Virus record (IMG/VR): IMGVR_UViG_3300008448_010756
Location: 1 to 21,032 of that record
Source: a virus
Reading direction: 5' to 3' (one strand)
DNA length: 21,032 nt
In this document: positions 5,335 to 20,856 of the stretch, piece by piece
Position numbering within the stretch: position 1 is the stretch's first letter
Layout: each line of letters opens with the position of its first letter
Notes under the pieces: model-generated
The model's database searches: none
Told to the model about the DNA's origin: nothing
Seen by the model: only the letters and a program-made list of their open reading frames with translations
Made by a program: the position numbers and the translations under genes

Positions 5335-5335
5335 G

Positions 5336-5397: not shown

Positions 5398-6459
5398 ATG
5401 ATTGATCGTCAAAAAACAGCACTTGTTCTCGGTGCTGGTGGTTTTATTGGAAGTCATATGGTAAAAAGACTGCGAGCAGACGGTTATTGGGTTCGTGGTG
5501 TAGATCTTAAGTATCCGGAGTTTTCTCAAAGTCAAGCAGATGAATTTATTGTTGCTGACCTCAGAGATGTTTATATAGTTCGTAAAGCAATTCGTTTTGC
5601 TGGATATCTTGGAAATTATTACAAACAAATTGAAGATAAGTTCTGCGAACCCTTTGATGAAATTTATCAATTTGCTGCCGATATGGGTGGTGCCGGATTT
5701 GTCTTCACTGGTGAGAATGATGCCGACATTATGCATAATTCGGCAACGATTAATTTGAATGTGTTGGATCAGGTTGTAAAGTTTAATAAGTTTAAAGGTG
5801 TAAACAAAACTAAAATTTTCTATTCCGGATCTGCTTGCATGTATCCTGAACATAACCAACTAGATCCTGACAATCCTGATTGCCGTGAAGAGTCTGCTTA
5901 CCCCGCTAACCCAGATTCAGAATATGGTTGGGAAAAACTTTTCGCTGAACGACTATTTTTCTCTTATCATCGTAATTATGGGATCCCTGTTCGGGTTGCT
6001 CGCTATCATAATATCTTTGGACCCGAAGGAACCTGGGAAGGTGGTAGAGAAAAGGCACCAGCAGCAATCTGCCGTAAAGTCGCTTATCTACCCCTAGAAG
6101 GCGGCACTATAGAGGTTTGGGGTGATGGTAAGCAGACTAGATCATTTCTCTATATTGATGAGTGTATTGAGGCAACCAGGAGAATGATGGATAGTGAGTT
6201 TATCGGACCCGTTAATATTGGTTCTGAGGAGATGGTAACTATCAATCAACTTGTTGATACTGCTGCTGAAGTTGCCGGTAAGAACGTTGAAAAGGAACAT
6301 ATTTTAGACGCTCCTCTTGGAGTTCGTGGTCGTAATTCAAATAATGACGTAGTTCGTAGAGAGCTTGGGTGGGATTATTCTCAAACTCTTGAAGATGGTA
6401 TTCGTAAAACCTATAATTGGATATCCGAACAAATTCAATCTAAAAAGTTGTCCTCATAA
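5398..6459 (+). CDS. GDP-mannose 3,5-epimerase
   Basis: This is an extended SDR enzyme expected to convert GDP-D-mannose to GDP-L-galactose (and GDP-L-gulose) using bound NAD. The Rossmann loop is GAGGFIGSH (12-20). The signature AADMGGAGFV, the SGSACMYPE segment, NPDSEYGWEKL, YHNIFGPEGTWEGGREKAPAA, WGDGKQTRSFLYIDEC and GVRGRNSNNDV all match plant GME closely. C147, Y176, K180 and K219 correspond to the catalytic Cys, Tyr, Lys and Lys of the Arabidopsis enzyme. Length (353) is that of the family. It is the first gene of the operon. No GDP-fucose genes (Gmd/Fcl) accompany it. Instead fucosyltransferase-type enzymes follow, so GDP-L-galactose may be their donor. Action on a GDP-heptose is an alternative. 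Confidence 0.9.
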   Translation: MIDRQKTALVLGAGGFIGSHMVKRLRADGYWVRGVDLKYPEFSQSQADEFIVADLRDVYIVRKAIRFAGYLGNYYKQIEDKFCEPFDEIYQFAADMGGAGFVFTGENDADIMHNSATINLNVLDQVVKFNKFKGVNKTKIFYSGSACMYPEHNQLDPDNPDCREESAYPANPDSEYGWEKLFAERLFFSYHRNYGIPVRVARYHNIFGPEGTWEGGREKAPAAICRKVAYLPLEGGTIEVWGDGKQTRSFLYIDECIEATRRMMDSEFIGPVNIGSEEMVTINQLVDTAAEVAGKNVEKEHILDAPLGVRGRNSNNDVVRRELGWDYSQTLEDGIRKTYNWISEQIQSKKLSS

Positions 6460-6471
6460 TTGGTATTGTAT

Positions 6472-7245
6472 ATGAATAGGATTAAAGATTTTTCTGATTT
6501 GAAAGATAGGATTGTTGAATGGATTCAACAATATTGTGTAGATAATTCTATCAAATCTCTTGTGATTGGGGTGTCTGGTGGAATTGATTCTGCAGTTTCT
6601 TCAACTCTTGCTGCCTCTACAGGTCTTCCTGTGTATGCACTTGGTATGCCAATTCATCAAAAAGAAGATCAGGAAGTATTATCTGATACGCATTTAGATT
6701 GGCTTCAACAAAACTTTTCTAATGTAATAGTTAATAAATTTGATCTTACTAAAGTTTTTGATACTTTCGAGTATACGATGAGGGAGTTTGGAGTAAATGA
6801 ACTCTCCCTTGCTAATAGCAGATCACGTCTTCGTATGATGACCTTATATCAAATTGCTGGATCTGTTGGTGGAATTGTTGTTGGAACTGGTAATAAAGTG
6901 GAAGATTATGGTATTGGATTTTATACAAAGTATGGTGATGGTGGAGTTGATATTGCCCCTATTGCGGACCTTTACAAGACAGAAGTGTGGAAACTTGGTG
7001 AGCATCTTGGTATAGATCAACGTATTATTGAAGCACAACCCACAGATGGTCTCTGGGAAGATGGGAGAACTGATGAGGATCAAATTGGAACCTCTTATGA
7101 GATGCTTGAGTGGGTAATGGAAAAAGGTTTTTATGAAGACCCCATGTTTTTAAGCGAAGAACAGATAAATGCCATATCTACATATAATAAATTCAACACA
7201 CAAAACAAACATAAAATGATTTCTATCCCCACTTTCAAATTATGA
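6472..7245 (+). CDS. nadE: NH3-dependent NAD synthetase
   Basis: It amidates nicotinic acid adenine dinucleotide to NAD with ATP and ammonia. The ATP pyrophosphatase loop SGGIDSA is at 35-41, GTGNKVED at 138-145, the YTKYGDGGVDIAPI segment at 151-164, and PTDGLWEDGRTDEDQIG at 190-206, all diagnostic of NadE. Length (257) fits the short, ammonia-using type; no glutaminase domain is present. The frame opens at 6460 with TTG, but the ATG at 6472 gives the natural MNRIKDF start. The next gene overlaps by ATGA. Inside a glycan operon it may sustain NAD for the three NAD-dependent sugar enzymes or for the infected cell. A shift toward amidating a sugar acid is a less likely alternative, given the intact NadE motifs. 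Confidence 0.9.
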   Translation: MNRIKDFSDLKDRIVEWIQQYCVDNSIKSLVIGVSGGIDSAVSSTLAASTGLPVYALGMPIHQKEDQEVLSDTHLDWLQQNFSNVIVNKFDLTKVFDTFEYTMREFGVNELSLANSRSRLRMMTLYQIAGSVGGIVVGTGNKVEDYGIGFYTKYGDGGVDIAPIADLYKTEVWKLGEHLGIDQRIIEAQPTDGLWEDGRTDEDQIGTSYEMLEWVMEKGFYEDPMFLSEEQINAISTYNKFNTQNKHKMISIPTFKL

Positions 7246-8018
7246 CTTCAACTATTAATGATGTTAAAAAGTTTTGGGATGATCGTCCCTGCAATGTAAA
7301 ACATTCCTCAAAGGAAGTTGGTACAAGAGAATACTTTAATGAGGTGGAACGTAAGAAGTTTAGGGCAGAACCTCACATTATCAAGTTTACTGAATTTTCA
7401 AGTTGGGAAGGTAAAAAAGTTTTAGAAATTGGTTGTGGTCTTGCTACAGTTGGAGCTAATTTTGCTTTTCATGGTGCAGATTATACTGGAGTAGAATTAT
7501 CAGAATCTAGTCTTGAACTTGCTAAAAAAAGATTTGAAGTCTTTGATCAAAAAGGTAAGTTTTATTCTGGAAATGCCGAAGAACTTTCTACCTTTGTTCC
7601 TGTTGAAACTTATGATTTGATTTATTCTTTTGGAGTAATTCATCACAGTCCTTATCCAGAAAAGATTATTTCTGAAATTAAGAAATATATGAATAAGGAC
7701 AGTGTTCTTAAGATCATGCTTTATGCAAAAGATTCTTGGAAGAATTATATGATTGATGCAGGTTTAGATCAACCTGAAGCACAGTATGGATGTCCGATTG
7801 CAAATACATATACTAAAAAAGATGTGCTAGAATTACTAGATGGATATAGTGTGGTTTCTATCGAACAGGATCATATATTTCCCTATCAAATTGAACCCTA
7901 TAAAAGGGGTGAATATGTTAAGCAACCTTGGTTTCAATCTATGCCTTTTGAAATGTTTAGGACTCTTGAGAAAAATCTTGGTTGGCATTTATTAATCACT
8001 GCTAAATTGGACGTATGA
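7242..8018 (+). CDS. Class I SAM-dependent methyltransferase
   Basis: A Rossmann methyltransferase of 258 residues. The SAM-binding motif I is VLEIGCG (60-66), the acidic residue of motif II is in GVELS (83-87), and motif IV is in the YDLIYSFGVIHH segment (124-135). The N-terminal region (FWDDRPCNVKHSSKEVGTREYF) resembles a group of methyltransferases found in surface-polysaccharide clusters. The likely substrate is a sugar hydroxyl or carboxyl, inferred from the context. Start and stop overlap the neighbours by ATGA on both sides, placing it firmly in the operon. It lies between NAD synthetase and the sugar dehydrogenase. Confidence 0.85.
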   Translation: MTSTINDVKKFWDDRPCNVKHSSKEVGTREYFNEVERKKFRAEPHIIKFTEFSSWEGKKVLEIGCGLATVGANFAFHGADYTGVELSESSLELAKKRFEVFDQKGKFYSGNAEELSTFVPVETYDLIYSFGVIHHSPYPEKIISEIKKYMNKDSVLKIMLYAKDSWKNYMIDAGLDQPEAQYGCPIANTYTKKDVLELLDGYSVVSIEQDHIFPYQIEPYKRGEYVKQPWFQSMPFEMFRTLEKNLGWHLLITAKLDV

Positions 8019-9127
8019 AAATAGGTGTTATTGGTGCCGGAAGACTTGGAATTTGTTTTGCTCTTCTTTTAGAGAAGGCAGGATATGAAGTTGTGGCATC
8101 TGATGTTCGTGAAGATTATGTAAAAGATCTTCAAGATAAACGAATCATTACAAATGAACCACATGTTCAGGAACTTCTTTCCGAATCAAAAAATATTACA
8201 TTTAAGACTGGAAATTTAGATGTAATTAAAGAATGCGATATTCTCTATACTCTTGTTGCAACTCCATCTTTATCTGACGGTAGTTATGATATTTCTAGTA
8301 TTTGGAATGTCGTAAATGATCTTCAGAATGCTAATTTTTCAGTAAAAGGAAAATCTTTAGTTATTGGATGTACAACAAATCCTGGGGATTGTGAGAAGTT
8401 TCAGGAAAAACTCCAAGCATATGGGGTTGATGTATTTTATAATCCAGAATTTATTGCACAGGGATCCGTTATTAAGGATCTCCAAAATGCTGATATGGTT
8501 TTAATTGGAGGTAGAGGAAATCATCTTTATGCATTAAATGACATCTATCTTAAGATACAAGAAAATCCTCCTAAAATTTATTTTATGAGCACCAAAGCTG
8601 CTGAAATTACTAAAATAGCAGTTAATTGTTTCCTCACTACAAAGATCAGTTATGCCAATATGGTTGGACAAGTTCTTGCTCTTTCTGGCATGGAGGATGA
8701 GATATTCCATGTTCTCGAAGCAATTGGTAGTGATACTAGGGTTGGTGGCAAGTATATAAATTATGGTTTTGGATTTGGTGGTCCATGCCTACCAAGAGAC
8801 AATAGAGCTTTTGGTGTTTATATGAAAAAATTGGGATTGAATAATAATCTTGGATCTACCACCGATGATTTTAACAATGAACATGCAAAGTTTTTGTTTA
8901 ATTATTTTGTAAATAAAAATACTAAAAATCTTCCATTTTGTTTTCATTACATTACATATAAGGAGCAAACTGATATTCTCACTGAAAGTCAACAGTATCG
9001 TTTGTGTTTAGACTTATTGAATGCTGGGTATAAAGTTTATGTTGTTGATGAACTTATAAAGGATCAGTGTGATGAAAGAATAGAATGGGGCATACCATGT
9101 GAAGAAGTATTTTGGATAGAGCTATGA
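8015..9127 (+). CDS. UDP-glucose/GDP-mannose-type 6-dehydrogenase
   Basis: NAD-dependent four-electron oxidation of a nucleotide sugar to the uronic acid. The dinucleotide loop is GAGRLG (7-12), with YNPEFIAQGSVIKDL (142-156) in the middle domain, the AAEITKIAVNCFL helix with K200 and N204 in the positions of the catalytic Lys/Asn, and FGFGGPCLPRD (252-262) with C258 as the thioester Cys. The 370-residue length is shorter than the usual 390-440, the shortening being in the C-terminal sugar-binding domain. The choice between UDP-glucose, UDP-HexNAc and GDP-mannose cannot be made from motifs alone. The ATGA overlaps at both ends show coupling. It gives the pathway an acidic sugar. Confidence 0.87.
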   Translation: MKIGVIGAGRLGICFALLLEKAGYEVVASDVREDYVKDLQDKRIITNEPHVQELLSESKNITFKTGNLDVIKECDILYTLVATPSLSDGSYDISSIWNVVNDLQNANFSVKGKSLVIGCTTNPGDCEKFQEKLQAYGVDVFYNPEFIAQGSVIKDLQNADMVLIGGRGNHLYALNDIYLKIQENPPKIYFMSTKAAEITKIAVNCFLTTKISYANMVGQVLALSGMEDEIFHVLEAIGSDTRVGGKYINYGFGFGGPCLPRDNRAFGVYMKKLGLNNNLGSTTDDFNNEHAKFLFNYFVNKNTKNLPFCFHYITYKEQTDILTESQQYRLCLDLLNAGYKVYVVDELIKDQCDERIEWGIPCEEVFWIEL

Positions 9128-9735
9128 ACATTTTTATTGATTGTGGAACTCATTTATTTCAGGGATTTAGGCAATTTGCCGAAAAGTATAATATTGATGG
9201 GGATTGGAAATGCTATTGCTTTGAAGCAAATCCTTTTACCTATAAAAAGTCAATTTCTGAATATAATGCTCTTTTAGAAGAAGGTTATAATATAACTCAT
9301 TTTAATAAAGCTGTTTATATTGAGGATGGTAAAATATCCATGAATTGTTCTCGTGATGAAGGTGGACCTTATGCTGACGGACATTTTAGTCAATCATCTA
9401 ACATCCTAACAGATCCTCCTGATTATGATCATGTTTATCATTATGGATTTGACTACCTTGAGGAAAAGGTTGAAGTTGAATCTATTAATTTCTCAAAATT
9501 TCTTCAGGAAAATGTAAGTAATGGTGACTTTGTTGTTGTCAAAATGGATGTAGAAGGAGCAGAGTTTTCTATCCTACCTTCTATTGTTCATGATAATTCT
9601 TATAAATTAATCAGTCATTTTTATTGCGAATTCCATGAAAGATTTTTTGAACCAAAAAGTAAGTATAAAGTGCTTAAAGAGCAGTATATAAATATTTTTA
9701 AGGATTCTGAAATTTTATTTGAGGAATGGATTTGA
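9124..9735 (+). CDS. FkbM-family methyltransferase
   Basis: It carries the FkbM signature: FIDCGTH in the SAM loop (4-10), CFEANP (32-37) and KMDVEGAEF (140-148), with an E/H-rich end. FkbM-type enzymes methylate hydroxyls, including sugar hydroxyls in bacterial glycans; the substrate here is inferred. The frame can be extended to a TTG at 9112, but the ATG at 9124 in the ATGA overlap with the dehydrogenase is the natural start, giving 203 residues. The stop overlaps the GT6 start (TGATG). The position directly before a terminal-type glycosyltransferase fits modification of its acceptor or donor sugar. Confidence 0.85.
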   Translation: MNIFIDCGTHLFQGFRQFAEKYNIDGDWKCYCFEANPFTYKKSISEYNALLEEGYNITHFNKAVYIEDGKISMNCSRDEGGPYADGHFSQSSNILTDPPDYDHVYHYGFDYLEEKVEVESINFSKFLQENVSNGDFVVVKMDVEGAEFSILPSIVHDNSYKLISHFYCEFHERFFEPKSKYKVLKEQYINIFKDSEILFEEWI

Positions 9736-10541
9736 TGAAAAAAATTGCTATTAGTTTTATTGGTACTGGGAATTATGTGAACTTTTTTCCCAAGTACTAT
9801 GAAACGATAAATGAATACTTTGTGCCAGAATGTGAGAAGCATTTCTTTGTTTTAACTGATGGTGTATTTGATGGAGATCTACCCGATAATATTACTATAA
9901 TACCCACAACGGACAAGTACGAACAAACTCCACATGATTATGCCCCTAATGGGTGGGTTAGTATGATCCATAAAACTATCGGTGGATTGTACAGATTTGA
10001 GACAATTAAAAATTTGAAAGATAGGTTAAAAGAATTTGATTGGTATGCATATATCGATGCTGATTATTATGCTTGCCCAGAAGTAATTACCTATGAAAGT
10101 TTCTTTGATGATACGAAAGATTTTTTTGCCGTTCAGCATCCATGTTTTACTAAAGAATGGACAAGGTATGCTGGTGGAAATAGACCATTCGAAAGAAATT
10201 CTGAATCTTTATCTTGCGTAAAGAAAGAAGAAGAAATTGATGAAGTTTATTTGCAGGGATGCCTATGGGGTGGAAAAGTACCCAAGGTTTTTGATATGGT
10301 AGAGGAACTGGATAGGAGAGTCAAAGTAGATATAGAAAATGATTTTGTTTCTAAAGTTGTATCCAGTGCTCTTGATGAAAATCATCTAAACCGATATAGA
10401 ATAGATTATGCAGATCAGTTTCATATACTTCACCCCTCTTTTGCCAAACCTGGAAACATTCCTAGTGAGCAATTTTCATATGAAGCAAAAATGATTCATT
10501 CTCCTGCATATAGGTATGAACTTCTAGGAGCATCTACTTAA
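9735..10541 (+). CDS. GT6 (ABO-like) alpha-1,3-Gal/GalNAc transferase
   Basis: Family 6 retaining glycosyltransferase, related to the human ABO and alpha-1,3-galactosyltransferases, which add Gal or GalNAc alpha-1,3 to a galactoside. The family blocks appear in order: YIDADYY with metal motif D108-A109-D110, FAVQHPCF (131-138), PFERNSES (151-158), YLQGCLWGGKV (172-182) and DENHLNRY (214-221), the last matching DESHLNKY of ABO. The soluble catalytic domain only, with no membrane anchor, is as in bacterial relatives. I recall that bacterial GT6 enzymes mostly carry NxN in place of DxD and that cyanophage P-SSM2 has a GT6, so the DxD here is notable. The ATG at 9735 has GAGG ten bases upstream; the alternative ATG at 9726 would leave one base. 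Two GT11 enzymes downstream could build an H-like acceptor. Confidence 0.87.
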   Translation: MKKIAISFIGTGNYVNFFPKYYETINEYFVPECEKHFFVLTDGVFDGDLPDNITIIPTTDKYEQTPHDYAPNGWVSMIHKTIGGLYRFETIKNLKDRLKEFDWYAYIDADYYACPEVITYESFFDDTKDFFAVQHPCFTKEWTRYAGGNRPFERNSESLSCVKKEEEIDEVYLQGCLWGGKVPKVFDMVEELDRRVKVDIENDFVSKVVSSALDENHLNRYRIDYADQFHILHPSFAKPGNIPSEQFSYEAKMIHSPAYRYELLGAST

Positions 10542-10557
10542 TTATTGGAGAGTTGTT

Positions 10558-11367
10558 ATGAAAAAATATTATTTTTCTATTGCTTCGGTTTTTAAAAATG
10601 AAAGTTGGGGAATGAAAGAGTGGTTGGATCATTACAAATTTCATGGTGTCGATCACATTTATCTTGTAAATGATTTTAGCACTGATGATTATATGAATAT
10701 TCTCAATCCTTATATTGAGGATGGATTTGTTACTTTATATCATAATGACAATTCGGAAAGATATACTGGAAGACAAATTGATATTAATAATAAATTTTTT
10801 AAACCAGTTGTAAATGAAACTCAATGGATTGTTAATTTAGATCTTGATGAATTTCTTTATAGTCCTAAAGAAATGGATTTAAAAAATATATTGCAGAAAT
10901 ATGAATCGTATGCCTGCATAATTGCTAATTGGGTTTGGTTTAATTCTAATGGTCATGTCAAACAACCATCATCTATAGTTCATTCTTTTACGAAAAGATG
11001 TGAATATGACGGTAAAGTTTATATGAAAAGTCCTGGTAATTCTTTTTTTGAGTGGATTCAATTCAATGCTCCAAAAGTTATTTTAAATTCTGACTTTAGT
11101 ATAGAATCATTTAACATACATTCTGCTAAAGTAAATGGAAATGGTATTAATGTATCAACTCAAGATATGTCAGATGATCCTGAACTATTGATAAATCATT
11201 ATCAACTTCAATCTAGAGAATATTGGGAAAAGATTAAGATGAATCGGGGCGATGTAAATCATTGGTTCAAAGGATCTCCAAGAGATTTTGGGGGATATGA
11301 ATCCATGGATATTGGGGACATTGATGATTTTAGACTTTCGGAACAGAATAAGGAGATATGCAAATGA
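10558..11367 (+). CDS. GT92-like / GT-A glycosyltransferase
   Basis: The 269-residue inverting GT-A enzyme has the start pattern of the GT92/DUF23 and Glyco_tranf_2_4 group: SVFKNESWGMKEWLDHYKFH (10-29), then GVDHIYLVNDFSTDD. The metal-binding block is NLDLDEFLY (93-101), the characteristic DxDEF. The acceptor and sugar are not predictable; galactosyl transfer is common for GT92. GGAG at 10547-10550 lies seven bases before the ATG, one of the clearer ribosome sites in the operon. The end overlaps the following GT11 start by four bases (ATGA at 11364). No membrane segment is seen, so it should act at the cytoplasmic side. Confidence 0.8.
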   Translation: MKKYYFSIASVFKNESWGMKEWLDHYKFHGVDHIYLVNDFSTDDYMNILNPYIEDGFVTLYHNDNSERYTGRQIDINNKFFKPVVNETQWIVNLDLDEFLYSPKEMDLKNILQKYESYACIIANWVWFNSNGHVKQPSSIVHSFTKRCEYDGKVYMKSPGNSFFEWIQFNAPKVILNSDFSIESFNIHSAKVNGNGINVSTQDMSDDPELLINHYQLQSREYWEKIKMNRGDVNHWFKGSPRDFGGYESMDIGDIDDFRLSEQNKEICK

Positions 11368-12224
11368 TCGGAATGAATAACCTAGGTAAAAATGGTAGAC
11401 TAGGCAATCAAATGTTTCAATATGCGGCATTAGTAGGTATTGCTAAAAATCGTGGATTTGATTTTGCTATACCAGATTGCTCCAATGCTAAAAGTTTTGA
11501 TTACCATAATGGGCATTCAATCGTAACTGTATATCATCAATTGCAGCATTGTTTTGAAATGAGTTATTGTGATGGTAGATATGGATTAATTGATGGAGAT
11601 GAGGTAGATCTTCATGAGTCTCATGAATTTTGTCAGGAACTTTTTGATGAGTGTCCCGATAATGTTTCTTTAAATGGATATTTTGAGACTGAAAAATATT
11701 TTCAAAATGCCGAGGAAGAAATAAGACTTGATTATAAATTTAATAAAGAAATTATAGATCAAGTTGATTCTCATTTTGAATCTTATTTGGATCAAAATCC
11801 TGTTTCTATAGTGGTTAGGGATTTCAATGCAACTTTTGACCATCCTGGATGTGAACAGTCTCATAGAAATCTTCCATTTGAATATTTTGAAAAGGCAATT
11901 GAATTTATGGGAAAGGATAGAACATATATTATATGCTCTAACAATATTGAATTATGTAAAAAACAAACGCAATTTAAAGGTGAAAATTTTATTTTTAATG
12001 AAATTAATCCTGAAGGAATATATAAGGGGCATTTTGATTTGTGCTTAATTTCTAAATGTTCAGACTTTATTATTTCAAATAGTACATTTGCTTGGTGGGG
12101 TGCCTGGTTGGGAGAAAATAAAGATAAAAAAATTGTTTGCCCACACCCTTGGTATGGAGAGACTTTAAGTCATATTAAAACTGATGACTTATATCCGGAC
12201 AGTTGGATAAAAATTAATTGTTAA
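11364..12224 (+). CDS. GT11 fucosyltransferase-like, altered HxRRGDY motif
   Basis: Family 11 (alpha-1,2-fucosyltransferase type). The block GRLGNQMFQYAA is at 11-22, LNGYFETEKYF at 103-113, and the closing block NSTFAWWGAWL at 239-249. The normally near-invariant HxRRGDY donor-phosphate motif is replaced by VVRDFN (150-155), with only one Arg left. This suggests a changed donor, lower activity or decay. The protein is otherwise full length (286), unbroken, and carries the rest of the fold. The start at 11364 is chosen over ATG 11358 because AGGAG at 11351-11355 is eight bases away and because the second GT11 in the operon also begins MIG.N.LG. The two copies share MIG.N.LG..GRLGNQMFQY and look like diverged paralogues. 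Confidence 0.82.
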   Translation: MIGMNNLGKNGRLGNQMFQYAALVGIAKNRGFDFAIPDCSNAKSFDYHNGHSIVTVYHQLQHCFEMSYCDGRYGLIDGDEVDLHESHEFCQELFDECPDNVSLNGYFETEKYFQNAEEEIRLDYKFNKEIIDQVDSHFESYLDQNPVSIVVRDFNATFDHPGCEQSHRNLPFEYFEKAIEFMGKDRTYIICSNNIELCKKQTQFKGENFIFNEINPEGIYKGHFDLCLISKCSDFIISNSTFAWWGAWLGENKDKKIVCPHPWYGETLSHIKTDDLYPDSWIKINC

Positions 12225-12240
12225 TTACTTGGAGGATTTT

Positions 12241-13049: not shown

Positions 13050-13775
13050 ATGATTACTTTAAAAACAACGAAAGACGTAGCTTATGATTCTCCGGATCAT
13101 CTTTGTCCAATTGGAACTATTAATGATAATTTTTCATCGATTGGATTAATTGGTGAAATCACTGAATATTTTAATAATAGGCAGATTACTGTTTTGGATT
13201 TGGGGTGTGCTGGCGGACAATTTGTAGCAGATTTTATAGGTCAAGGTGACATTGCGGTAGGTTTGGAGGGCAGTAGTCACGCTCTTACTGGAACTGGTAA
13301 AAAAAATTGGAAAAAATATTATAATAAAAATTTATTCTTATGTGATATTACGGAAGACTATCAATTATATGATGACGGAGTTCCTATGTTATTTGATGTC
13401 ATCCATTCTGAGGAAGTCTTTGAACACATTTCACCTGAAGATGTTGATAGTTTGCTTTTAAATATTTTTAAACATCTAAAAGAGGGTGGTATTGGTATAT
13501 TTGGTATTTCTTTGGTTCCTGATGTTAGAAATAAAGATGGGGAAGCAATGGTTCCTCCTTTTGCCTCCGAAGATAAAACTATTGGATATAATGATGAACT
13601 CTTCGTTCTACATCAATCCGTCTTTCCTGCCAAATGGTGGAAAGAAAAAATAGAATCAATTGGATTTAAAATTTTTAAAAATGGAATTCATACTGATAAT
13701 TGTTTTGGTTATATCTTTAATCATAGTGTAAGATATGCAGGTAATGAATCTGTTTACATATGTTGTACTAAATAA
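13050..13775 (+). CDS. Class I SAM-dependent methyltransferase
   Basis: The 241 residues include SAM motif I VLDLGCAGG (48-56), motif II acid GLEGS, and FDVIHSEEVFEHI as motif IV. The rest, with WWKEKIESIGFKIF near the end, matches the usual methyltransferase type-11 ending. The substrate is probably a sugar or sugar phosphate in the same glycan. It is separated from its neighbours by 17 and 20 bases. It is the third of five methyltransferases in this run and is not closely similar to the other four in the motifs I can compare. Confidence 0.82.
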   Translation: MITLKTTKDVAYDSPDHLCPIGTINDNFSSIGLIGEITEYFNNRQITVLDLGCAGGQFVADFIGQGDIAVGLEGSSHALTGTGKKNWKKYYNKNLFLCDITEDYQLYDDGVPMLFDVIHSEEVFEHISPEDVDSLLLNIFKHLKEGGIGIFGISLVPDVRNKDGEAMVPPFASEDKTIGYNDELFVLHQSVFPAKWWKEKIESIGFKIFKNGIHTDNCFGYIFNHSVRYAGNESVYICCTK

Positions 13776-13795: not shown

Positions 13796-14578
13796 ATGAC
13801 AACTATTGTTAGTTTAGCAACTCCAGGAATGGGGAATAGAATAAAGACATATGTGAGTGCATTTGCTAGGTACGATGTTGTCAAAACATGTAAACAATCT
13901 GATACTTTTATCTTTAATGGTTTAGAGTTTGCTACGCATGAAGACATTCAAAAATATCCAAATGTTGATTCTTGGAGATTAGATGTTGATCTTGATGAGG
14001 AGAAATATATTGATGAATATAAAACTATAGATCTTTTATATGAAAAGACCCCTCAATATTTTATTGACAAATACTTACCTTGTTTTAAAAAATTAAATAT
14101 TAATCCTGATATTTTAAATTTTGTTGATAAGTTTGCTCATGAGTGGGATGACAATGTAGTTGGACTTCATGTTAGAACATATTACCATCCAGTAGTTATG
14201 CAATGGTATGATATTAATTTGTTTGATGATGAAATATCCAAATTAGATCCTAATATAAAAATATTCTTTTGTTGCGATAATTCTGATGTCCACAACCGTT
14301 TTATTGAGAGGTATAAAGATCGCTTGATCATTTATGATCGGGAGAGATACAATAATGCATATCAAGCGGAATCTGGATTTAATGATGATATTCAAATCAA
14401 TGTAGACGCATTTATTGAAATGTTGCTATTATCCCGATGTTCAACTATAATAGGAACATATATTAGTACGTTTACGGAATGTGCCTGGTGGTTTGGTGAA
14501 TGTAAATCTAAAGTTATTGTTCCAATTCCATCAAAGATTCCAAGCACTTATATTGAAGATCATTTTGTTAAAAAATAA
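13796..14578 (+). CDS. Fucosyltransferase-like GT-B glycosyltransferase
   Basis: A tentative call. ATPGMGNRIKTYVSAFARY (8-26) resembles the G(L/M)GNR.. start of fucosyltransferase-fold enzymes, GLHVRTYYH (123-131) occupies the place of their H.R..(D/H) phosphate-binding block, and the segment at 211-232 ending TFTECAWW resembles the S..S.(F)S..A loop shared by NodZ/FUT8-like and GT11 enzymes. The protein is 260 residues and soluble. The donor is probably a GDP-sugar by family analogy. Alternatives are an O-FucT-like enzyme of unknown specificity or an inactive relative. Its ATG follows an AT-rich 20-base gap without a clear Shine-Dalgarno. Confidence 0.62.
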   Translation: MTTIVSLATPGMGNRIKTYVSAFARYDVVKTCKQSDTFIFNGLEFATHEDIQKYPNVDSWRLDVDLDEEKYIDEYKTIDLLYEKTPQYFIDKYLPCFKKLNINPDILNFVDKFAHEWDDNVVGLHVRTYYHPVVMQWYDINLFDDEISKLDPNIKIFFCCDNSDVHNRFIERYKDRLIIYDRERYNNAYQAESGFNDDIQINVDAFIEMLLLSRCSTIIGTYISTFTECAWWFGECKSKVIVPIPSKIPSTYIEDHFVKK

Positions 14579-14593: not shown

Positions 14594-15274
14594 ATGTTAG
14601 ATTTAAAAGATCCGTGGTCTTATTATGAAAGATCTGATTTAGAAAAATTAAAAGTAAAATTTAATGATATTGAAAAGATAGAACGTAATTATTCACAATC
14701 TTTTCAAGACATGTTTGTTCTTTCTATGTTAAATGGAAAAAGAAATGGAATATATGTGGAAGTGGGAGCTGCTGCTCCATTTTTTGCTAGCAATACATAT
14801 ATACTCGAACAAATTTTTGGGTGGACTGGAGTTTCGTTGGAAATTGATGGAACTAAAGTAAATTCATTTAACCACCATAGATCTAATAAATGCATTTGTT
14901 CAGATGCTATGGTAGTAAATTATACTAATATGTTTGAAGAAAATAATTTTCCAAAACAAATTGATTATTTGCAAATAGATATTGAACCTGCCTTTCAATC
15001 TTTAAATGCTCTAAAGAAAATTGATTTGGAAACTTATAGATTTTCTGTCATTACATTTGAAACGGACATTTATTCGGATAAGGATAATGAAAAAGTCCTT
15101 AAAGAGTCTAGAGAAATATTCCAAAAACATGGATATAAGTTAGTTGCATCCAATGTAAAATCTTGTGGATATCCTTATGAAGATTGGTATGTTGATCCTG
15201 AAATTGTTACTGAAGATATATGGAAAAACTTTAAATGTGATTCTTTTGAATGTACGAATATTTTATATAAATGA
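14594..15274 (+). CDS. FkbM-like methyltransferase, second type
   Basis: The 226-residue protein opens with a SQSFQDMFVLSML helix (34-46), then IYVEVGAAAPFFASNTYILE (53-72) as the SAM loop, GVSLEID (79-85) as motif II and DYLQIDIEPA (124-133) in the place of the usual D.(D/I)(V)EG. This matches the distant FkbM group with an S.(F/Q)QD..V leader often found in polysaccharide clusters. The canonical EG is EP here, so the substrate site may differ from the first FkbM protein of the operon. The ATG lies 15 bases after the previous stop; the end overlaps the kinase gene by ATGA. It precedes the heptose module directly, which makes the heptose a candidate substrate. Confidence 0.75.
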   Translation: MLDLKDPWSYYERSDLEKLKVKFNDIEKIERNYSQSFQDMFVLSMLNGKRNGIYVEVGAAAPFFASNTYILEQIFGWTGVSLEIDGTKVNSFNHHRSNKCICSDAMVVNYTNMFEENNFPKQIDYLQIDIEPAFQSLNALKKIDLETYRFSVITFETDIYSDKDNEKVLKESREIFQKHGYKLVASNVKSCGYPYEDWYVDPEIVTEDIWKNFKCDSFECTNILYK

Positions 15275-16218
15275 TTATTTCATCGTGCCCATTAAGAATA
15301 TCTTTATTTGGGGGATCTACAGATAATCCATTTTTTGTGGAAAAATTTGGATATGGATCTGTAATAAGTTTTACATGTGACTTAAAAACTTATGTAACTA
15401 TCAGTCAAGATAAATTTGGATTTAATCGAGATCAACATAAGTACATTGTTAATTATTCTCGTAGGGAGGAAGTGTTAGAAGTTAATCAAATTGAAAATGA
15501 TGTAGTAAGAGTTGTCCTAGAGTATTTTAATATGCCTCCAGTTCAAGTTACATTGACTAGTGATGCATATTCTCAGGGTAGTGGTCTTGCATCATCATCT
15601 TCATATATTATTAGTTTAATCAAATCCTGTATTATTTTTCTTGATATTCATATGACAGAGATTGAAATCTGTAAACTGGCATATGAGTTGGAGTTGAAAT
15701 TTAATCCTTATTGTGGGTATCAGGACCCTTATGGATGTGGTATTGGTGGATTCAAAAAAATAGAATTCATCAAAGGTGGTATTGTTAAGTATGATTTTCT
15801 ATCTACCAAAATGTTCAATGATTATGATATGCATCTTGTCTTTACTGGAGTTACTAGAAATTCAAAGAATATATTGAAAGATGTTTCTGAAAATATTGAT
15901 AAAGCAAAACCACTTTTAATAACTCTTGATGAATCTTATAAGACATTAATTAAAAATGATTATAGTCAATTTTTAAACTATCTCAAACAGAGTTGGATTC
16001 AAAAGAAAGAAACAAGTTCTACGATTATGGAAAATCATTCTGTTCAAGAAATGGATGATTTTTTGAATAATAATAATACCGTGATCGCACATAAGTTATG
16101 TGGTGCGGGAAACGGTGGATTTTTTCTCGTGTTTTCTGAAAAAGAAAACTTGAATATTCCTTATGAATCTGTTAGAATAAGTGTAACGCCTACTGGAGTA
16201 TCTGGGACTAGAATATGA
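15271..16218 (+). CDS. hddA: HddA-like heptose-7-phosphate kinase (GHMP family)
   Basis: A GHMP kinase of 315 residues. PLRISLFGGSTDNPFFVEKF near the start is the typical HddA opening, GSGLASSSS (103-111) is the ATP loop, QDPYGCGIGG (151-160) the substrate and metal region, and CGAGNGGFF (277-285) the third GHMP motif. The expected reaction is phosphorylation of D-glycero-D-manno-heptose 7-phosphate at C1. It sits as hddA-gmhA-phosphatase/nucleotidyltransferase with ATGA overlaps, the order of a compact NDP-heptose module. The known bacterial GDP-heptose route uses these steps in sequence. Other GHMP sugar kinases are possible, but the neighbouring isomerase makes heptose the best reading. 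Confidence 0.86.
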   Translation: MIISSCPLRISLFGGSTDNPFFVEKFGYGSVISFTCDLKTYVTISQDKFGFNRDQHKYIVNYSRREEVLEVNQIENDVVRVVLEYFNMPPVQVTLTSDAYSQGSGLASSSSYIISLIKSCIIFLDIHMTEIEICKLAYELELKFNPYCGYQDPYGCGIGGFKKIEFIKGGIVKYDFLSTKMFNDYDMHLVFTGVTRNSKNILKDVSENIDKAKPLLITLDESYKTLIKNDYSQFLNYLKQSWIQKKETSSTIMENHSVQEMDDFLNNNNTVIAHKLCGAGNGGFFLVFSEKENLNIPYESVRISVTPTGVSGTRI

Positions 16219-16718
16219 ATCCATTCGTAAGATATATTGAAGCACTTCAAGGTGCTCATATAGCAGAAGAATTTACCAAATTTTTTATCGCATTTGGTTC
16301 TCATAAAAGAATTATTATTCTTGGAAATGGTGGAAGTAACTCCGTAGCATCTCATATCTCTCAAGACTATATGAAGTTTCATGGAAAGAAAGTTTCCATT
16401 CTTTCTGATCCTTCAATGCTGACTATGCTTACAAATGACTTTGGGTATGAGAATGCGTATCAAAAGTTTTTAGAATATTATATTGAGGAAGATACTCTTG
16501 TCATTATTATGAGTTCTGGTGGTGAGTCTAAAAATATGTTAAATGCTCAACAATGGTGTGAAGATAACAAAGTCTCCTATGGAGTTTTGAGTGGGTTTAA
16601 AGAAAACAATTCATTGAGAACTAATTCAATAAATGCTCTCTGGAACTACTACATCAACAGCACTGATTATGGTGTAGTTGAATGTGTTCATCAAATCTTT
16701 CTTCATGGGGTAGTATGA
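16215..16718 (+). CDS. gmhA: GmhA-like sedoheptulose-7-phosphate isomerase (SIS domain)
   Basis: A single SIS-domain protein expected to convert sedoheptulose 7-phosphate to D-glycero-D-manno-heptose 7-phosphate. GNGGSNSVASH (37-47) binds the phosphate, NDFGYE (74-79) and MSSGGES (99-105) are the next SIS blocks, and VECVHQIFLH (155-164) is the C-terminal catalytic helix. At 167 residues it is shorter than E. coli GmhA (192). The usual acidic residue after the first block appears as SQDY in place of A.E, so catalysis may rest on a shifted Asp. Sedoheptulose 7-phosphate is abundant in the host's Calvin and pentose-phosphate cycles, which provides substrate. It overlaps both neighbours by ATGA. 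Confidence 0.83.
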   Translation: MNPFVRYIEALQGAHIAEEFTKFFIAFGSHKRIIILGNGGSNSVASHISQDYMKFHGKKVSILSDPSMLTMLTNDFGYENAYQKFLEYYIEEDTLVIIMSSGGESKNMLNAQQWCEDNKVSYGVLSGFKENNSLRTNSINALWNYYINSTDYGVVECVHQIFLHGVV

Positions 16719-17470
16719 GATATTGTTTTGATATTGATGGTACTCTTTGTAATACTCCAAATAATGAATTAGGAAAACCTGATTATATTAATGCCAAACC
16801 ATTTCCCTTTATGGTTGAGCAAGTTAATCGTTTATATGATGAAGGAAACTACATCATCATGCAGACTGCTAGAGGAAAGGGATCTGGTATTGATCATACC
16901 GAATTGACCAAAAAGCAACTTGATGAATGGGGATATAAGTATCACGAATTGTTCCCAATGTTCTGTAAACCGAATGCTGATATTTTTATAGATGATAAAG
17001 GAGTAAATGCCGTAGACTGGGCAGCATCTCAACCTAAAGTAAAAGGTATTATTGCCGGTGCATTTGATATAATTCATCCCGGATATGTTAGAATGTTTGA
17101 AGATTGCAGAATGTATTGTAATCATCTTACCGTCGCTTTACATGCAGATCCTTCATTGGAAAGAGATTATAAACTAAAACCAGTTCATTCTGTTTCAGAA
17201 AGAATAGAAATACTTTTGTCTATGAAGTATGTTGATAGTGTTGTAGTTTATGCTGTAGAAAGTGAGTTTCATAATTATCTCAGTAGTGGAAATTATGATG
17301 TTAGATTTTTAGGAACAGATTATATTGATGGGAAGTATACTGGAAAGGATATAGATATTAATATTGTGTGGTTAGATAGGGAATCGCACGAATACTCAAG
17401 TACAAGATTAAAAAATTTAATTTTTGAATCAGTTTATTTAAAAAAAATGGAGCGTGAAAATTATGACTAA
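16715..17470 (+). CDS. HAD phosphatase fused to cytidylyltransferase-like domain
   Basis: Two enzyme domains in 251 residues. Residues 1-105 are a HAD phosphatase: DIDGT at 6-10 with D6/D8, TAR at 51-53 and IDDK at 92-95. Residues 110-251 are a cytidylyltransferase-like domain: GAFDIIHPGY (115-124), SERIEIL (161-167) and SSTRLK (228-233). Its HxGH motif reads HPGY, so the second His is Tyr. Next to the heptose kinase and isomerase the expected job is to remove the C7 phosphate (GmhB role) and load a nucleotide on heptose 1-phosphate. The transferase resembles the HldE/TagD type and not the GDP-forming HddC type. The ATG at 16715 lies in an ATGA overlap; the frame upstream of it is the 3' end of gmhA in another frame. 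Confidence 0.83.
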   Translation: MRYCFDIDGTLCNTPNNELGKPDYINAKPFPFMVEQVNRLYDEGNYIIMQTARGKGSGIDHTELTKKQLDEWGYKYHELFPMFCKPNADIFIDDKGVNAVDWAASQPKVKGIIAGAFDIIHPGYVRMFEDCRMYCNHLTVALHADPSLERDYKLKPVHSVSERIEILLSMKYVDSVVVYAVESEFHNYLSSGNYDVRFLGTDYIDGKYTGKDIDINIVWLDRESHEYSSTRLKNLIFESVYLKKMERENYD

Positions 17471-18362
17471 AAGTTTGGTTACTGGTGGTGCAGGATTTAT
17501 TGGATCTCATCTAGTAGATAAATTATTGGAACTTGGTCACGAAGTTGTCGTAATTGATAATGAGTATGCCGAGTGTCATGAGCAATTTTATTGGAATGAT
17601 GGGGCACAAAATTATAAGTATGATATTCGTGATTATGAAAATACTAGACCTCTTTATGAAGGAGTTGATTATGTTTTTCATGTTGCCGCAGAGGCAAGAA
17701 TTCAACCTGCCATTTTAAATCCTATTGAAGCAGTTAGTATTAATTCTGTTGGAACAGTTACAGTGCTTCAGTGTGCAAGGGAGGCAGGAGTTAAGAAGGT
17801 AATGTACTCATCCACCTCTTCTGGATATGGTTTTAATGAACCACCTAACCATGAAGATCAACCAGATGATTGCTTAAACCCATATTCTGTTTCTAAAGTT
17901 TCTGGCGAAAAACTTTGTTCAATGTATACAAAATTATTTGGATTGAATACAGTTATTTTCAGATATTTTAATGTATATGGAGAACGTTCACCTATTAAAG
18001 GTCAATATGCTCCTGTTATTGGAATTTTTCTGCGACAAAAAAATGATAATGAACCATTAACTATTGTTGGTGATGGTGAACAGAGAAGAGATTTTACTCA
18101 TGTATCTGATGTTGTATCTGCAAATATTGCTGCTGCTATTTCTGATGTTTCTGATGAAAATTATGGGCAACTGTATAATATTGGAAATGGTACAAATTAT
18201 TCCATTAATGAAATTGCAGATTCTATCTCAAGTAATCAGGTTAATATTCCTCCAAGAGTTGGTGAGGCAAGAACAACCTTGGCTAATAATAGTAAAATGA
18301 GAAAAGTTTTTAATTGGGAACCCAAAGTAAATCTTTTCCAGTGGATTTCTGATCATAAATGA
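17463..18362 (+). CDS. NAD-dependent UDP-hexose/HexNAc 4-epimerase-like SDR
   Basis: Extended SDR enzyme of 299 residues. TGGAGFIGS (7-15) binds the dinucleotide, D32 after the second strand favours NAD, and SSTSSGYG (116-123) with Y141-x3-K145 form the catalytic set. RYFNVYGERS, a DGEQRRDFTHV.D segment and NIGNGTNYSINE complete the epimerase pattern (close to UDP-GlcNAc/UDP-Glc 4-epimerases of polysaccharide clusters). It would supply UDP-Gal or UDP-GalNAc, the donors expected by the GT6 and galactosyltransferase genes. Dehydratase activity on another NDP-sugar remains possible. The ATG at 17463 has GGAG (17449-17452) ten bases upstream; the GTG at 17454 is too close to it. It overlaps the previous gene by 8 bases. 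Confidence 0.86.
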   Translation: MTKSLVTGGAGFIGSHLVDKLLELGHEVVVIDNEYAECHEQFYWNDGAQNYKYDIRDYENTRPLYEGVDYVFHVAAEARIQPAILNPIEAVSINSVGTVTVLQCAREAGVKKVMYSSTSSGYGFNEPPNHEDQPDDCLNPYSVSKVSGEKLCSMYTKLFGLNTVIFRYFNVYGERSPIKGQYAPVIGIFLRQKNDNEPLTIVGDGEQRRDFTHVSDVVSANIAAAISDVSDENYGQLYNIGNGTNYSINEIADSISSNQVNIPPRVGEARTTLANNSKMRKVFNWEPKVNLFQWISDHK

Positions 18363-18363
18363 A

Positions 18364-19164
18364 ATGATAGGATTTAATCATCTAGGTAGACTGGGAAGAC
18401 TTGGAAATCAAATGTTCCAGTACGCGGCATTGAAAGGAATTGCCAAGCATAAGAACTATGAATTCTGTATACCATATTATGCAGAATCTGTTAATGATGG
18501 TATTGGGAATTATTTGAAGACAGAACTATTCAATGCTTTTGAATTGAAAGTTGAAAACATTCAACATGTCAGAGGACCGTATATTAACGAACCTCACTTT
18601 CATTTTTCTGAACAATTTTTTAATGACTGTCCTGATAATGTCTCTTTAAATGGATTTTTTCAAACAGAAAAATATTTTAAACACATTGAAAATGAGATTC
18701 GTGAAGATTTTACCTTTAAAAAAGAAATAAGAGATTCTTGTTTAGAAGTATTTAATGAGTTAGATTTAAAAAATCCAATTGCTTTACATATTCGTAGAGG
18801 AGATTATGTTATTAATTCAAACCGCCATCCTGTAATGCCCTTGAGTTATTATGAAACTTCTCTTTCTAACTTTGACAAAGATAGAGAAGTAATTGTTTTT
18901 TCTGATGATCCATCTTGGTGTAAGGAGCAAGAACTTTTTTCTGAAGATAGATTTTTAGTTTCCGAAGGAACTGATACTTACCATGATTTATGCCTAATGT
19001 CAATGTGTTCTGATTTTATTATTGGCAACTCATCTTTTTCCTGGTGGGCAGCATGGTTGGCAAATAGAGGTAAAGTTTTTTATCCATCTATTTGGTTTGG
19101 ACCAGAATTAAATAATGATCTAAAAGATTTATTCCCAGAAGAATGGGTTGAGGTGCAATTATGA
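18364..19164 (+). CDS. GT11 alpha-1,2-fucosyltransferase-type glycosyltransferase
   Basis: Intact family 11 enzyme of 266 residues: GRLGNQMFQYAA (11-22), LNGFFQTEKYF (95-105), HIRRGDY (142-148), FSDDPSW (179-185) and NSSFSWWAAWL (222-232). The classical reaction moves L-fucose from GDP-fucose onto O2 of a galactose. No GDP-fucose synthesis gene is in the window, whereas a GDP-mannose 3,5-epimerase is, so GDP-L-galactose is an alternative donor. It is the functional-looking partner of the altered GT11 at 11364. The ATG is the base after the previous stop plus one. The ATGA overlap links it to the next transferase. Confidence 0.88.
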   Translation: MIGFNHLGRLGRLGNQMFQYAALKGIAKHKNYEFCIPYYAESVNDGIGNYLKTELFNAFELKVENIQHVRGPYINEPHFHFSEQFFNDCPDNVSLNGFFQTEKYFKHIENEIREDFTFKKEIRDSCLEVFNELDLKNPIALHIRRGDYVINSNRHPVMPLSYYETSLSNFDKDREVIVFSDDPSWCKEQELFSEDRFLVSEGTDTYHDLCLMSMCSDFIIGNSSFSWWAAWLANRGKVFYPSIWFGPELNNDLKDLFPEEWVEVQL

Positions 19165-20018
19165 ATAAACTAGAAAATACAACTTTTATTATTCCTTTAA
19201 GAATCGAAAGTGGCGATAGAATGAGAAATATCATCACGGTTCTTTGTTTTCTTTTATATAATTTTGATTCCAAAGTTATAGTTAAAGAAGTCGACTCTCA
19301 AAAAGTTTTTGAACCAGATGTTCTACCACAAATAACTGAATTTCTGGGAGATAGAATTCAAAATCTTACTCATATATTTGAACATTCTGATAATCAAGTT
19401 TTTCACAGAACAAGAATATTGAATGAAATGATTCATATGTCAACAACCGAAGTTGTTGTTAACTATGACTGTGATATTGTTCTGAGACCAGAGACATATT
19501 ATAAGTCAGTTGATATGATTGTAAATGATGGATATGATCTAATTTATCCATATGGTAAAGGTAGTTATCAGCAGCAAGTTTTTGCTACAGATGAAATAGT
19601 TTCTGAATTTATTAGTAATGATTTTGATTTTGATATTTTAATGAGGAACAGTCAAAATTATCTTTCTGACCGTGGACATGTCCAATTTTTTAAAAGATCT
19701 TCTTATATTGAAGGTGGAATGGAAAATGAAAATTTTATAGGTTCTGCCCCAGAAGACTTGGAGAGACATGATAGATATATCAAACTTGGATATAAAGTTG
19801 GAAGAATAGATGACATTATTTTTCATTTTGAGCATAGTAGAGGTATGAATTCATATCCCATTTCTGTTCAAAGAAGTCCTCACTGGAATGATAATTGGAA
19901 ATTATATGAGTATCTAAATACGGCATCGGTAGAAGAATTAAAGGAGTATTATCAAACACAAAAATACTTAAAAAAATATCCCACAAAAATATTACTGGAG
20001 GATTTGAGTGATGGATGA
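19161..20018 (+). CDS. GT2/GT27-type galactosyltransferase-like enzyme
   Basis: GT-A fold enzyme of 285 residues. TFIIPLRIESGDR (8-20) is the first strand, RTRILNEMI (83-91) lies in the donor site, YDCDI (102-106) is the DxD motif and GGMENENFIGSAPEDLERHD (185-204) resembles the (G).(E)(D).D...R block of the N-terminal galactosyltransferase domain (Glyco_transf_7C, as in chondroitin synthases and GalNAc-transferases). The R..R.GY.(V/I).R.D...FHFEH ending, with HFEHSRG (222-228), supports this. The UDP-sugar donor would match the 4-epimerase two genes upstream. ATGA overlap upstream and an 8-base overlap downstream keep it in the coupled chain. Confidence 0.75.
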   Translation: MNKLENTTFIIPLRIESGDRMRNIITVLCFLLYNFDSKVIVKEVDSQKVFEPDVLPQITEFLGDRIQNLTHIFEHSDNQVFHRTRILNEMIHMSTTEVVVNYDCDIVLRPETYYKSVDMIVNDGYDLIYPYGKGSYQQQVFATDEIVSEFISNDFDFDILMRNSQNYLSDRGHVQFFKRSSYIEGGMENENFIGSAPEDLERHDRYIKLGYKVGRIDDIIFHFEHSRGMNSYPISVQRSPHWNDNWKLYEYLNTASVEELKEYYQTQKYLKKYPTKILLEDLSDG

Positions 20019-20856
20019 GGATAAAAATAAATCAATTTATAAATTAAATGGATTTCCTACAATATACTATAACAACCTTGATGACGATATTTCCAGAAGA
20101 GAGTACATGGAAGATCAATTTAAATATTGGGGGATCAAAAACTACCATAGAACATCTGGATATGATGGTAGAAAGAGTGATTTGAGTGAAATTTTAGTAG
20201 GAAAATATCCAGAACAAATGAATTCCAGAGATGTTGGGAGTGCAACTTCTCATCTAAAAACGATAAAAACTTGGTTAGAAACTTCTGATGAATCAGAAAA
20301 ATCCATAGTTGTTATGGAGGATGATTGTGATATGAGCACTATCAAGTATTGGCCATTTGTATGGAAAGATTTTATTGCTAAACTTCCCCCCGATTGGGAC
20401 ATCATTCAATTAGCAGTTATTAATCCAATAAGTGTTCATTTAAAAATTCATAGAACATATGTTTGTGATTATTCAAGTGCTTGTTATATGATTAAAAGGC
20501 ATTATGCTAAAAAATTAGTTGATATTTACTGCCGTAAAGACAAATATAAACTTGATTGGAATATCAAGCCAAGATGTTGTTCTGAGCATATTAAGTATCA
20601 AGGTGGTAAAAGTTTAACCATGCCTTTGTTCTTGTATAACGAAACATATCCATCTTCTATACATTCTCCAGAACATATTCAAACTTTTCATATGTCTTCT
20701 CATGATAGTTTATGGTCTTTCTGGAAAAATAAAGCATCAGATGTAGATTGGAATGATCTTTTTACATATGATCCTGTGAATCATCAAGGAGTTCCTCCAG
20801 AAGCAATGAAAGAACAAAATTCAGTTGAACCAATACAATCAGAAACTTATTCATAA
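20011..20856 (+). CDS. GT25 (LPS galactosyltransferase) family protein
   Basis: The last gene of the operon, 281 residues. NLDDDISRRE (22-31) is the NLDR.(D)R-like opening of GT25 enzymes, SHLKTIKTWL (80-89) the conserved SH...(W) helix and VVMEDDCDM (100-108) the ED(D).(D) metal motif. GT25 enzymes of Gram-negative bacteria add beta-1,4 galactose to LPS. The acceptor is unknown here. GGAGG at 19997-20001 sits nine bases before ATG 20011; the preceding GTG at 20008 is a possible alternative start. The C-terminal 80 residues are variable. The gene is followed by 42 bases and then the second operon-ending terminator. Confidence 0.82.
   Translation: MDEDKNKSIYKLNGFPTIYYNNLDDDISRREYMEDQFKYWGIKNYHRTSGYDGRKSDLSEILVGKYPEQMNSRDVGSATSHLKTIKTWLETSDESEKSIVVMEDDCDMSTIKYWPFVWKDFIAKLPPDWDIIQLAVINPISVHLKIHRTYVCDYSSACYMIKRHYAKKLVDIYCRKDKYKLDWNIKPRCCSEHIKYQGGKSLTMPLFLYNETYPSSIHSPEHIQTFHMSSHDSLWSFWKNKASDVDWNDLFTYDPVNHQGVPPEAMKEQNSVEPIQSETYS

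Follow-up and report, generated by a model that had tools for sequence, protein, structure and literature searches.

Gene clusters for glycan synthesis in cyanophages have reportedly been in print since 2005. According to the accessible part of Sullivan 2010, lipopolysaccharide (LPS) clusters of cyanophages lie near hli03 and tRNA genes, and whether they are functional or 'stuffer DNA' was left open (PMC3037559). The accessible part of a report on phage S-SCSM1 describes a similar gene set plus a wcaG RNA (PMC9602691), and the targets of this RNA were read as exopolysaccharide or high-light genes in the accessible part of Weinberg 2010 (PMC2864571). For such clusters, in print since at least 2010 (PMC3037559, accessible part), no product or role was found in the literature surveyed. 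Here, we analyzed IMG/VR record IMGVR_UViG_3300008448_010756 (21,032 bp, from an incomplete virus; hereafter, the window), in which 19 open frames, all on the plus strand, fill positions 5398-20856 (15,459 bp), overlapping slightly or standing no more than 20 bp apart. This glycan operon appears to be a cyanomyovirus LPS gene cluster of an already published kind (S-SSM7, S-SM2, P-SSM2). New here are a docking site for variable cargo that is marked by wcaG (the dock), terminator/promoter hybrids, the coupling of a NadE-like gene to UDP-glucose 6-dehydrogenase (UGDH), an order in which a GT25-type gene comes last, and ratios of nonsynonymous to synonymous substitution rates (dN/dS).

A blastn search with a 7.9 kb query returned 99 phage records, 96 of which are named Synechococcus, Marine, Cyanophage or Prochlorococcus, and none of the 99 covers 80% of the query. 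Related operons were found in P-TIM68, S-SCSM2R, S-SSM7, S-SM2, Sf-FS3, and Bellamy. A first-pass annotation made from the sequence alone had put forward the operon as a whole as a candidate new system, which is overstated in view of these six phages and of the published clusters (accessible parts of PMC3037559 and PMC9602691); it was silent on the dock with its wcaG RNA, on the hybrids that bracket the operon and on the coupling of NadE to UGDH. As at the site described by Sullivan 2010 (hli03 and tRNAs), tRNAs at 2660 and 3938 and an hli (high-light inducible) gene at 20922 lie near the operon, and a hidden Markov model (HMM) of its last gene, orf25, finds the genes labelled T4-GC266 (a shared LPS family, final glucosyltransferase) in S-SSM7 and S-SM2. 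The window shares with the cyanomyovirus clusters the hli/tRNA site, an epimerase of the GDP-mannose 3,5-epimerase (GME) type, GT11-type genes and the final GT25-type gene, and with S-SSM7 also NadE-UGDH; for P-SSM2 the likeness is known from a GT25 match only. It differs from them in gene set and order; the S-SSM7 operon, for one, has neither a heptose isomerase nor a kinase in its annotation. The 21 kb window contains no T4 core genes, but the kind of gp206, PstS, hli and wcaG that it carries is that of cyanomyoviruses; PstS lies upstream in the window and downstream in five of six sister phages. Two contigs are nearly the same DNA, L006 (11,191 bp) being 100% identical to window 153-11343 and L007 99.4% identical over 2759-6434.

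Searches against Pfam, NCBIfam and PHROGs divide the 19 genes into seven donor-sugar genes, five methyltransferases and seven glycosyltransferases, in agreement with the several donor sugars, seven transferases and five methyltransferases of the first-pass annotation; three assignments are weak matches, namely the NodZ-like gene, the second FkbM gene and the HAD part of orf21 (PHROGs). The donor side opens with orf7 (5398-6459), which scores 273.6 bits against plant GME (PDB) and 82.9 against the runner-up family among solved SDR epimerases, and 92.7 bits against the GDP-L-fucose synthase model (cut-off 500). Its alignment keeps the Cys of SACxYPE and the Lys of GGREKAPAA, which we take to be catalytic in GME, and judged from these sequence matches orf7 is a GDP-mannose 3,5-epimerase. 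It is followed by a NadE-like ammonia-dependent synthetase (6460-7245; PF02540, 1.9e-47) and UGDH (8015-9127; TIGR03026, 206 bits, cut-off 189.8) and, further downstream, by an HddA-like heptose 7-phosphate kinase (15271-16218; NF049969, 101 bits, below the equivalog cut-off of 600), a GmhA-like sedoheptulose 7-phosphate isomerase (16215-16718; TIGR00441, 1e-12, below cut-off), the orf21 fusion of a HAD phosphatase-like and a heptose-1-P nucleotidyltransferase-like part (16682-17470; PF01467, 1.7e-9; phrog_7878, phrog_1238) and an NAD-dependent nucleotide-sugar epimerase (17454-18362; PF01370, 3e-56). The nucleotidyltransferase motif of orf21 reads HPGY in place of HxGH; over 75 family matches, the motif expression gave H in 18, Y in one and no match in 56.

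The methyltransferases are orf9 (7242-8018; PF08242, 3e-14; phrog_22502), an FkbM type (9112-9735; PF05050, 1.8e-11), a sugar O-methyltransferase of NanM type (12229-13032; TIGR04371, 86 bits, cut-off 44), a PF13489 protein (13050-13775; 2.1e-10) and a weak FkbM-like match (14594-15274; PF05050, 0.0026, below cut-off). The glycosyltransferases comprise a GT6-like (9726-10541; PF03414, 7.6e-8; phrog_3317), a GT92/GT2 (10558-11367; PF13704, 3.7e-14; PF01697, 1.1e-13), a GT11 fucosyl/galactosyltransferase-like (11358-12224; PF01531, 3.9e-16), a weak NodZ-like fucosyltransferase (13796-14578; PF05830, 4e-4, below cut-off) and a second GT11 protein (18364-19164; PF01531, 3.8e-31), together with orf24 and orf25. 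The motif HxRRGD, presumably typical of GT11, is present in the second GT11 protein and missing from the first. For orf24 (19161-20018), which has no significant Pfam family, the AlphaFold model (pLDDT 89.8) shows a GT-A fold (GT2-type) with K4 chondroitin polymerase as the top Foldseek match (1.1e-10), and orf25 (20008-20856; phrog_2835, 2.5e-96; model pLDDT 77.4) is GT25-like by fold, resembling Mimivirus R655 and human COLGALT1; it shares the fold of the GT25 collagen/LPS glycosyltransferases and R655 at an identity of just 12-19%. The highest 19-residue hydropathy among the operon proteins is 1.77, corresponding to no membrane segment, so that the reported solubility of all proteins was borne out.

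Directly upstream of the operon, a full-length wcaG RNA (5227-5324, plus strand) scores 101 bits against RF01761, for which the Rfam gathering threshold is 42. Our own model (R1), built from 43 relatives of which the window is one, gives 109.5 bits, and 12 of the 24 base pairs in its alignment show double changes. It matches 64 of 87 sources, including 60 of 80 loci selected by GME (three of them scoring under 36 bits); for the 43 training sequences a match follows from the construction of the model. Among 49 whole records scanned, 43 contain wcaG, one copy each, and none was found in P-TIM68, S-SSM7 and four contigs; the glycan operons of P-TIM68 and S-SSM7 precede hli likewise, despite having no wcaG. 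The RNA resembles two similar hairpin units (GUUU..stem..UGGYG twice) within 5227-5324, a motif seen in the first halves of 37 and the second halves of all 43 sequences, of which 23 beat all 50 shuffles.

The surroundings of wcaG point to a fixed site with changing contents. It occurs at 56 places in 56 records of the phages collection, and annotation was examined for 16 of these regions. Upstream, a Phd/prevent-host-death antitoxin or a gp205-gp207-type gene is present in 11 of the 16, and only other or unnamed genes in five (S-H38, S-CREM1, S-SRM01, S-SZBM1, S-RIM4). Downstream, the displayed stretch reaches hli in 13 (the exceptions being S-SRM01, S-RSM4 and DSL-LC03) and includes psbA in eight. 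Between these borders lie just short genes or tRNA in Syn9, S-IOM18, S-CAM1 and S-CAM3, sugar genes in S-SRM01 and DSL-LC03, and elsewhere ferrochelatase (S-H38), a 2-oxoglutarate (2OG) oxygenase (Syn1), an S-layer/porin-like gene (S-PM2) or a tail fibre (S-RSM4). Environmental sequences gave the same picture: gp206, Phd, gp207 or talC lies upstream in 87 of 98 sources with 1.5 kb of room (the listed matches of an RNA-only scan plus the window, duplicates kept). The downstream survey took 119 listed matches, which after removal of 10 duplicates and nine without room left 100 loci; their cargo, classed by the first classifiable of up to three frames with seeds of our own (Pfam served as a check on 10 proteins and Gmd), was sugar-nucleotide/glycosyl in 77, fibre-like in seven, 2OG oxygenase in seven, CpeT-like in two and unclassified in seven. 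In the window the corresponding borders, both on the plus strand, are gp206 at 4298 (4298-4528; HMM, 135 bits) and hli at 20922 (20922-21032, running off the end; HMM, 47 bits; ATG probably at 20964). The operon thus appears, from this comparison of gene neighborhoods, to be exchangeable cargo at one fixed site, marked by wcaG, between the gp206/Phd block and hli.

Such a dock with varied cargo before hli would account for both groups of wcaG targets recognized by Weinberg. Because there is one copy per record and the cargo varies, neither a glycan-specific riboswitch nor a co-regulator of fibres and glycans inside one genome is supported. The window copy agrees with known wcaG RNAs in its full-length match and in the sugar-nucleotide genes downstream, but it differs in marking a dock of varied cargo, followed by a terminator/promoter hybrid, and in that the next gene is GME rather than GDP-L-fucose synthase. 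Long tail-fibre-like genes were seen soon after wcaG in L105, L109, L113, L145, L154, L165, L173, L184, L203 and S-RSM4 (L217); the tail fibre annotated in S-RSM4 shares 59% identity with the L154 protein over its first 178 residues, and Pfam adds little on these proteins, with a beta-helix in L113.

In the hybrids, the loop of a terminator hairpin carries the -35 box of the following predicted promoter. The window has three (at 542, 5342 and 20905), and the last two enclose the operon: one at 5336-5370, with a hairpin, a -35-like box in its loop, a T-run and a TATAAT -10 box (5365-5370), and one at 20897-20933, found by sequence scan, both on the plus strand. Since the 19 genes are enclosed in this way, the operon is predicted to be one transcription unit, as had been proposed from its same-strand frames. 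Of 120 sources, 93 could be examined, giving 85 unique environmental loci among the matches listed; a terminator-like hairpin stands behind wcaG in 80 of these (11.6 in mononucleotide shuffles) and a -10-like box follows it in 71 (2.8 in shuffles). A stricter scan found seven hybrids in seven loci, compared with none in one shuffle, and placed a hybrid behind wcaG in just three of 19 isolate loci (S-SM2, S-SRM01 and DSL-LC03, all with sugar cargo), which counts against its generality behind wcaG. Six isolates (L088, L205, L210, L213, L216, L220) have a hybrid directly before hli. Thus, the hybrid seems to be frequent in these phages and tied to the start of cargo, not to wcaG itself. Because the predicted promoter sits between wcaG and the operon, the operon transcript probably starts downstream of wcaG, and the upstream transcript is predicted to carry wcaG at its 3' end, barring terminator read-through. 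It is therefore worth viewing this RNA as the end of an upstream transcript and not solely as a leader.

The second gene of the operon is tightly coupled to UGDH. In phage loci selected by GME, wcaG or kinship to the window, 22 non-identical NadE matches were obtained, two of them cut off; all the other 20 have UGDH at most 1.75 kb downstream, and in 15 it is within 101 bp or overlaps. NadE accompanies 19 of 24 non-identical UGDH matches and is missing from five divergent ones (81-387 bits), one of which has little upstream room. By tblastn, NadE was detected in 18 of 50,697 phage records. All 15 that exceed 50% identity, representing 11 named phages of which some are near-identical, carry a UGDH-family dehydrogenase downstream, as judged by tblastn for ten, by annotation for Bellamy and HTVC008M (one record of each pair of GenBank twins) and by Pfam for AG-345-E15, while tblastn gave no UGDH match beside three more distant NadE genes (33-39% identity). 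Pfam also confirms the dehydrogenase in LR756502, an uncultured phage of 642 kb; the pair further occurs in cyanophages and in a pelagiphage. The gene after NadE-UGDH in LR756502 is a methyltransferase 45% identical to orf9, and NadE, UGDH and an orf9-type methyltransferase therefore form a shared cassette. Cellular relatives of the phage NadE (49-57% identity), in contrast, have UGDH beside them in none of 80 cases within the fetched flank, and no NadE was found within about 0.8-1.5 kb of nine bacterial UGDH loci in the taxa examined (four loci in two of four genomes, five in five of 397 genomes of one order).

The window protein belongs to the NAD+ synthetase family by sequence, passing TIGR00552 (163 bits, cut-off 63.65) and missing the PRK13980 equivalog cut-off (185 bits against 255), and 79 near-invariant columns are common to the phage proteins and their cellular relatives. 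Three positions (window numbering) separate the groups: residue 147 (F to Y) and residue 163 (S to A), presumably at the substrate pocket, differ in 18 of 18 phage proteins from 79 of 80 cellular ones, and residue 255 (V/I to T), close to the C-terminus, sets all 18 phage proteins apart from all 80 cellular ones. Because L222, the sole cellular sequence to break the pattern at 147 and 163, is surrounded by housekeeping genes, we count these differences as neutral and not as proof of a new substrate; a one-residue insertion was rejected as phage-specific, being shared by cellular relatives that had been selected by that motif. UGDH reduces two NAD+ per UDP-glucuronic acid, and the NadE-like enzyme may thus supply NAD+. 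It may, on the other reading, amidate the uronate, since nicotinic acid adenine dinucleotide (NaAD) and UDP-glucuronic acid can both be seen as a carboxylated six-membered ring on a nucleoside diphosphate. Our tentative suggestion, for which the odds are on the lower side, is a recruited amide synthetase that would convert UDP-glucuronic acid to UDP-glucuronamide and would not supply NAD+. WbpS/WbqG (AsnB type) would likewise yield a hexuronamide but belong to another enzyme family (for WbpS, the accessible part of PMC7468200), and among the papers listed by our literature search none joined uronamide and NAD synthetase. If true, a uronamide would enter phage glycans through a pathway that has nothing to do with WbpS. 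The pair may hold a clue to the chemistry of the phage glycan.

The GT25-type gene comes last in all 24 non-redundant loci, with no gene of a window-operon family within the next 3 kb (five of the 24 have less than 500 bp of room, and gene names were assigned by eye); carbamoyltransferase-like genes follow it in L054 and L069. A search of viral_contigs with the GT25 query found no relative. Outer-membrane porins with SLH and OprB domains stand behind GT25 in seven loci, called by Pfam in five (L041, L053, L071, L079, L114) and by the N-terminus in L036 and L067. Pfam also identifies one after wcaG in L182, and the S-PM2 'S-layer protein', encoded directly behind wcaG, resembles such a porin at residues 45-132, chiefly within the SLH part. 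Two annotations at these sites appear to be in error: the 'prolyl 4-hydroxylase' before GT25 in Sf-FS3 (L087, 26155-26676) is DUF6445, and the '2OG-Fe(II) oxygenase' after wcaG in S-SCSM2R (L004, 18111-19703) is a NodU-type carbamoyltransferase.

The first-pass annotation had seen no initiating transferase, flippase, polymerase or ligase in the operon, and a full export pathway elsewhere in the same phage was to count against it. As the window is incomplete, this was checked in 11 long relatives (eight isolate records and three contigs of 156-215 kb), none of which contains PF02397, PF00953, PF04932 or PF01943, the families searched for initiating transferase, Wzx and Wzy/WaaL; the same models hit 9, 12, 9 and 13 of 14 control genomes, respectively, and the search was confined to these four families, with ABC exporters and oligosaccharyltransferases outside it. 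Across 17 operons there is no multi-transmembrane protein, and one of 236 genes, transketolase-like in S-SM2, has a transmembrane-like stretch. The locus is thereby unlike Wzx/Wzy-type O-antigen or capsule systems, and its soluble cytoplasmic transferases resemble lipooligosaccharide (LOS)-type extension of the LPS core, which requires just such transferases and the host lipid A-core. The apparent absence of export machinery agrees with the first-pass annotation, but it is less puzzling than it had seemed.

Based on these data, we favour remodelling of the host surface, with a probability of about one half. In a T4-like marine cyanophage, the operon would make donors of GDP-L-galactose, uronic-acid and heptose type, from which the seven soluble transferases would build a methylated oligosaccharide on host lipid A-core, LOS style, at the inner leaflet; the host's own export would then display the glycan and mask receptors against competitors or re-adsorption. 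Expression would be middle-class, because close neighbours of the site are talC, hli and psbA, all expressed as middle genes in P-HM2 (accessible part of PMC5082946). The T4 late promoter WATAAATA occurs twice in the window (2426, 9687) against 10.2 expected, and the window scan found none at the operon start. The heptose-type genes, the genes annotated as KdsA and KdsB some 9 kb past the sister operon in S-SCSM2R and the porins behind GT25 and in S-PM2 speak for this reading. Several points weigh against it. The dock carries tail-fibre genes in other phages; Foldseek ranks Mimivirus R655 and COLGALT1 above beta-1,4-galactosyltransferase entries, which we take to be bacterial LPS enzymes (TM-score about 0.4-0.5, weak); nutrient uptake may be the role of the porins, and in S-SRM01 the full-length porin stands about 5 kb ahead of wcaG instead of following it. 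To our knowledge, the LPS of some marine Synechococcus has been reported without heptose and 3-deoxy-D-manno-octulosonic acid (KDO), so that such sugars would be foreign there.

Some phage- and giant-virus-coded transferases decorate their own virion proteins, and glycosylation of capsid or fibres in the cytoplasm, with GT25 attaching or capping the glycan on protein, is the strongest rival, though an unlikely one in our estimate. The lack of any lipid-carrier step in the 11 long records, the fold ranking of GT25, the fibre-like genes at seven of the 100 listed environmental docks and the annotated fibre of S-RSM4 with its L154 counterpart would all suit it. However, the dock holds either fibres or the glycan operon, since each record having wcaG has a single copy, and the two were never seen co-regulated in one genome; nor was a dedicated protein acceptor seen. 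A hydroxylase beside GT25, as a general pair for glycosylating collagen-like proteins, was rejected, since in both S-SSM7 and Sf-FS3 the small gene that precedes GT25 is DUF6445; a genuine 2OG gene abuts GT25 in L054. Less probable still is that the operon merely feeds the host capsule or exopolysaccharide, with host WecA/Wzx/Wzy finishing an unlinked polymer: the rich donor side and the exopolysaccharide or high-light reading of wcaG targets (accessible part of PMC2864571) agree with it, but seven transferases and five methyltransferases seem too specific for donor supply alone. Filling of the head of large-genome cyanophages without selected function, a possibility raised in the accessible part of PMC3037559, suits the highly variable cargo but is already disfavoured as very improbable by the 19 intact frames, the regular NadE-UGDH and GT25-last order, and dN/dS of 0.09-0.28 in 11 of the 19 genes (dS 1.1-1.8, near saturation). 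These 11 genes appear to be under purifying selection, which argues that costly glycan clusters are used. Among the eight remaining genes, one showed saturation, and for seven no comparator fell in the identity range of 55-97%.

Two features of the window lie outside the operon. Between gp206 and wcaG is an Asp/Asn beta-hydroxylase-like 2OG oxygenase (4530-5153, plus strand; PF05118, 4e-11), and at 1303-2625 on the minus strand are two neighbouring low-GC frames which, by eye, look like tandem paralogues.

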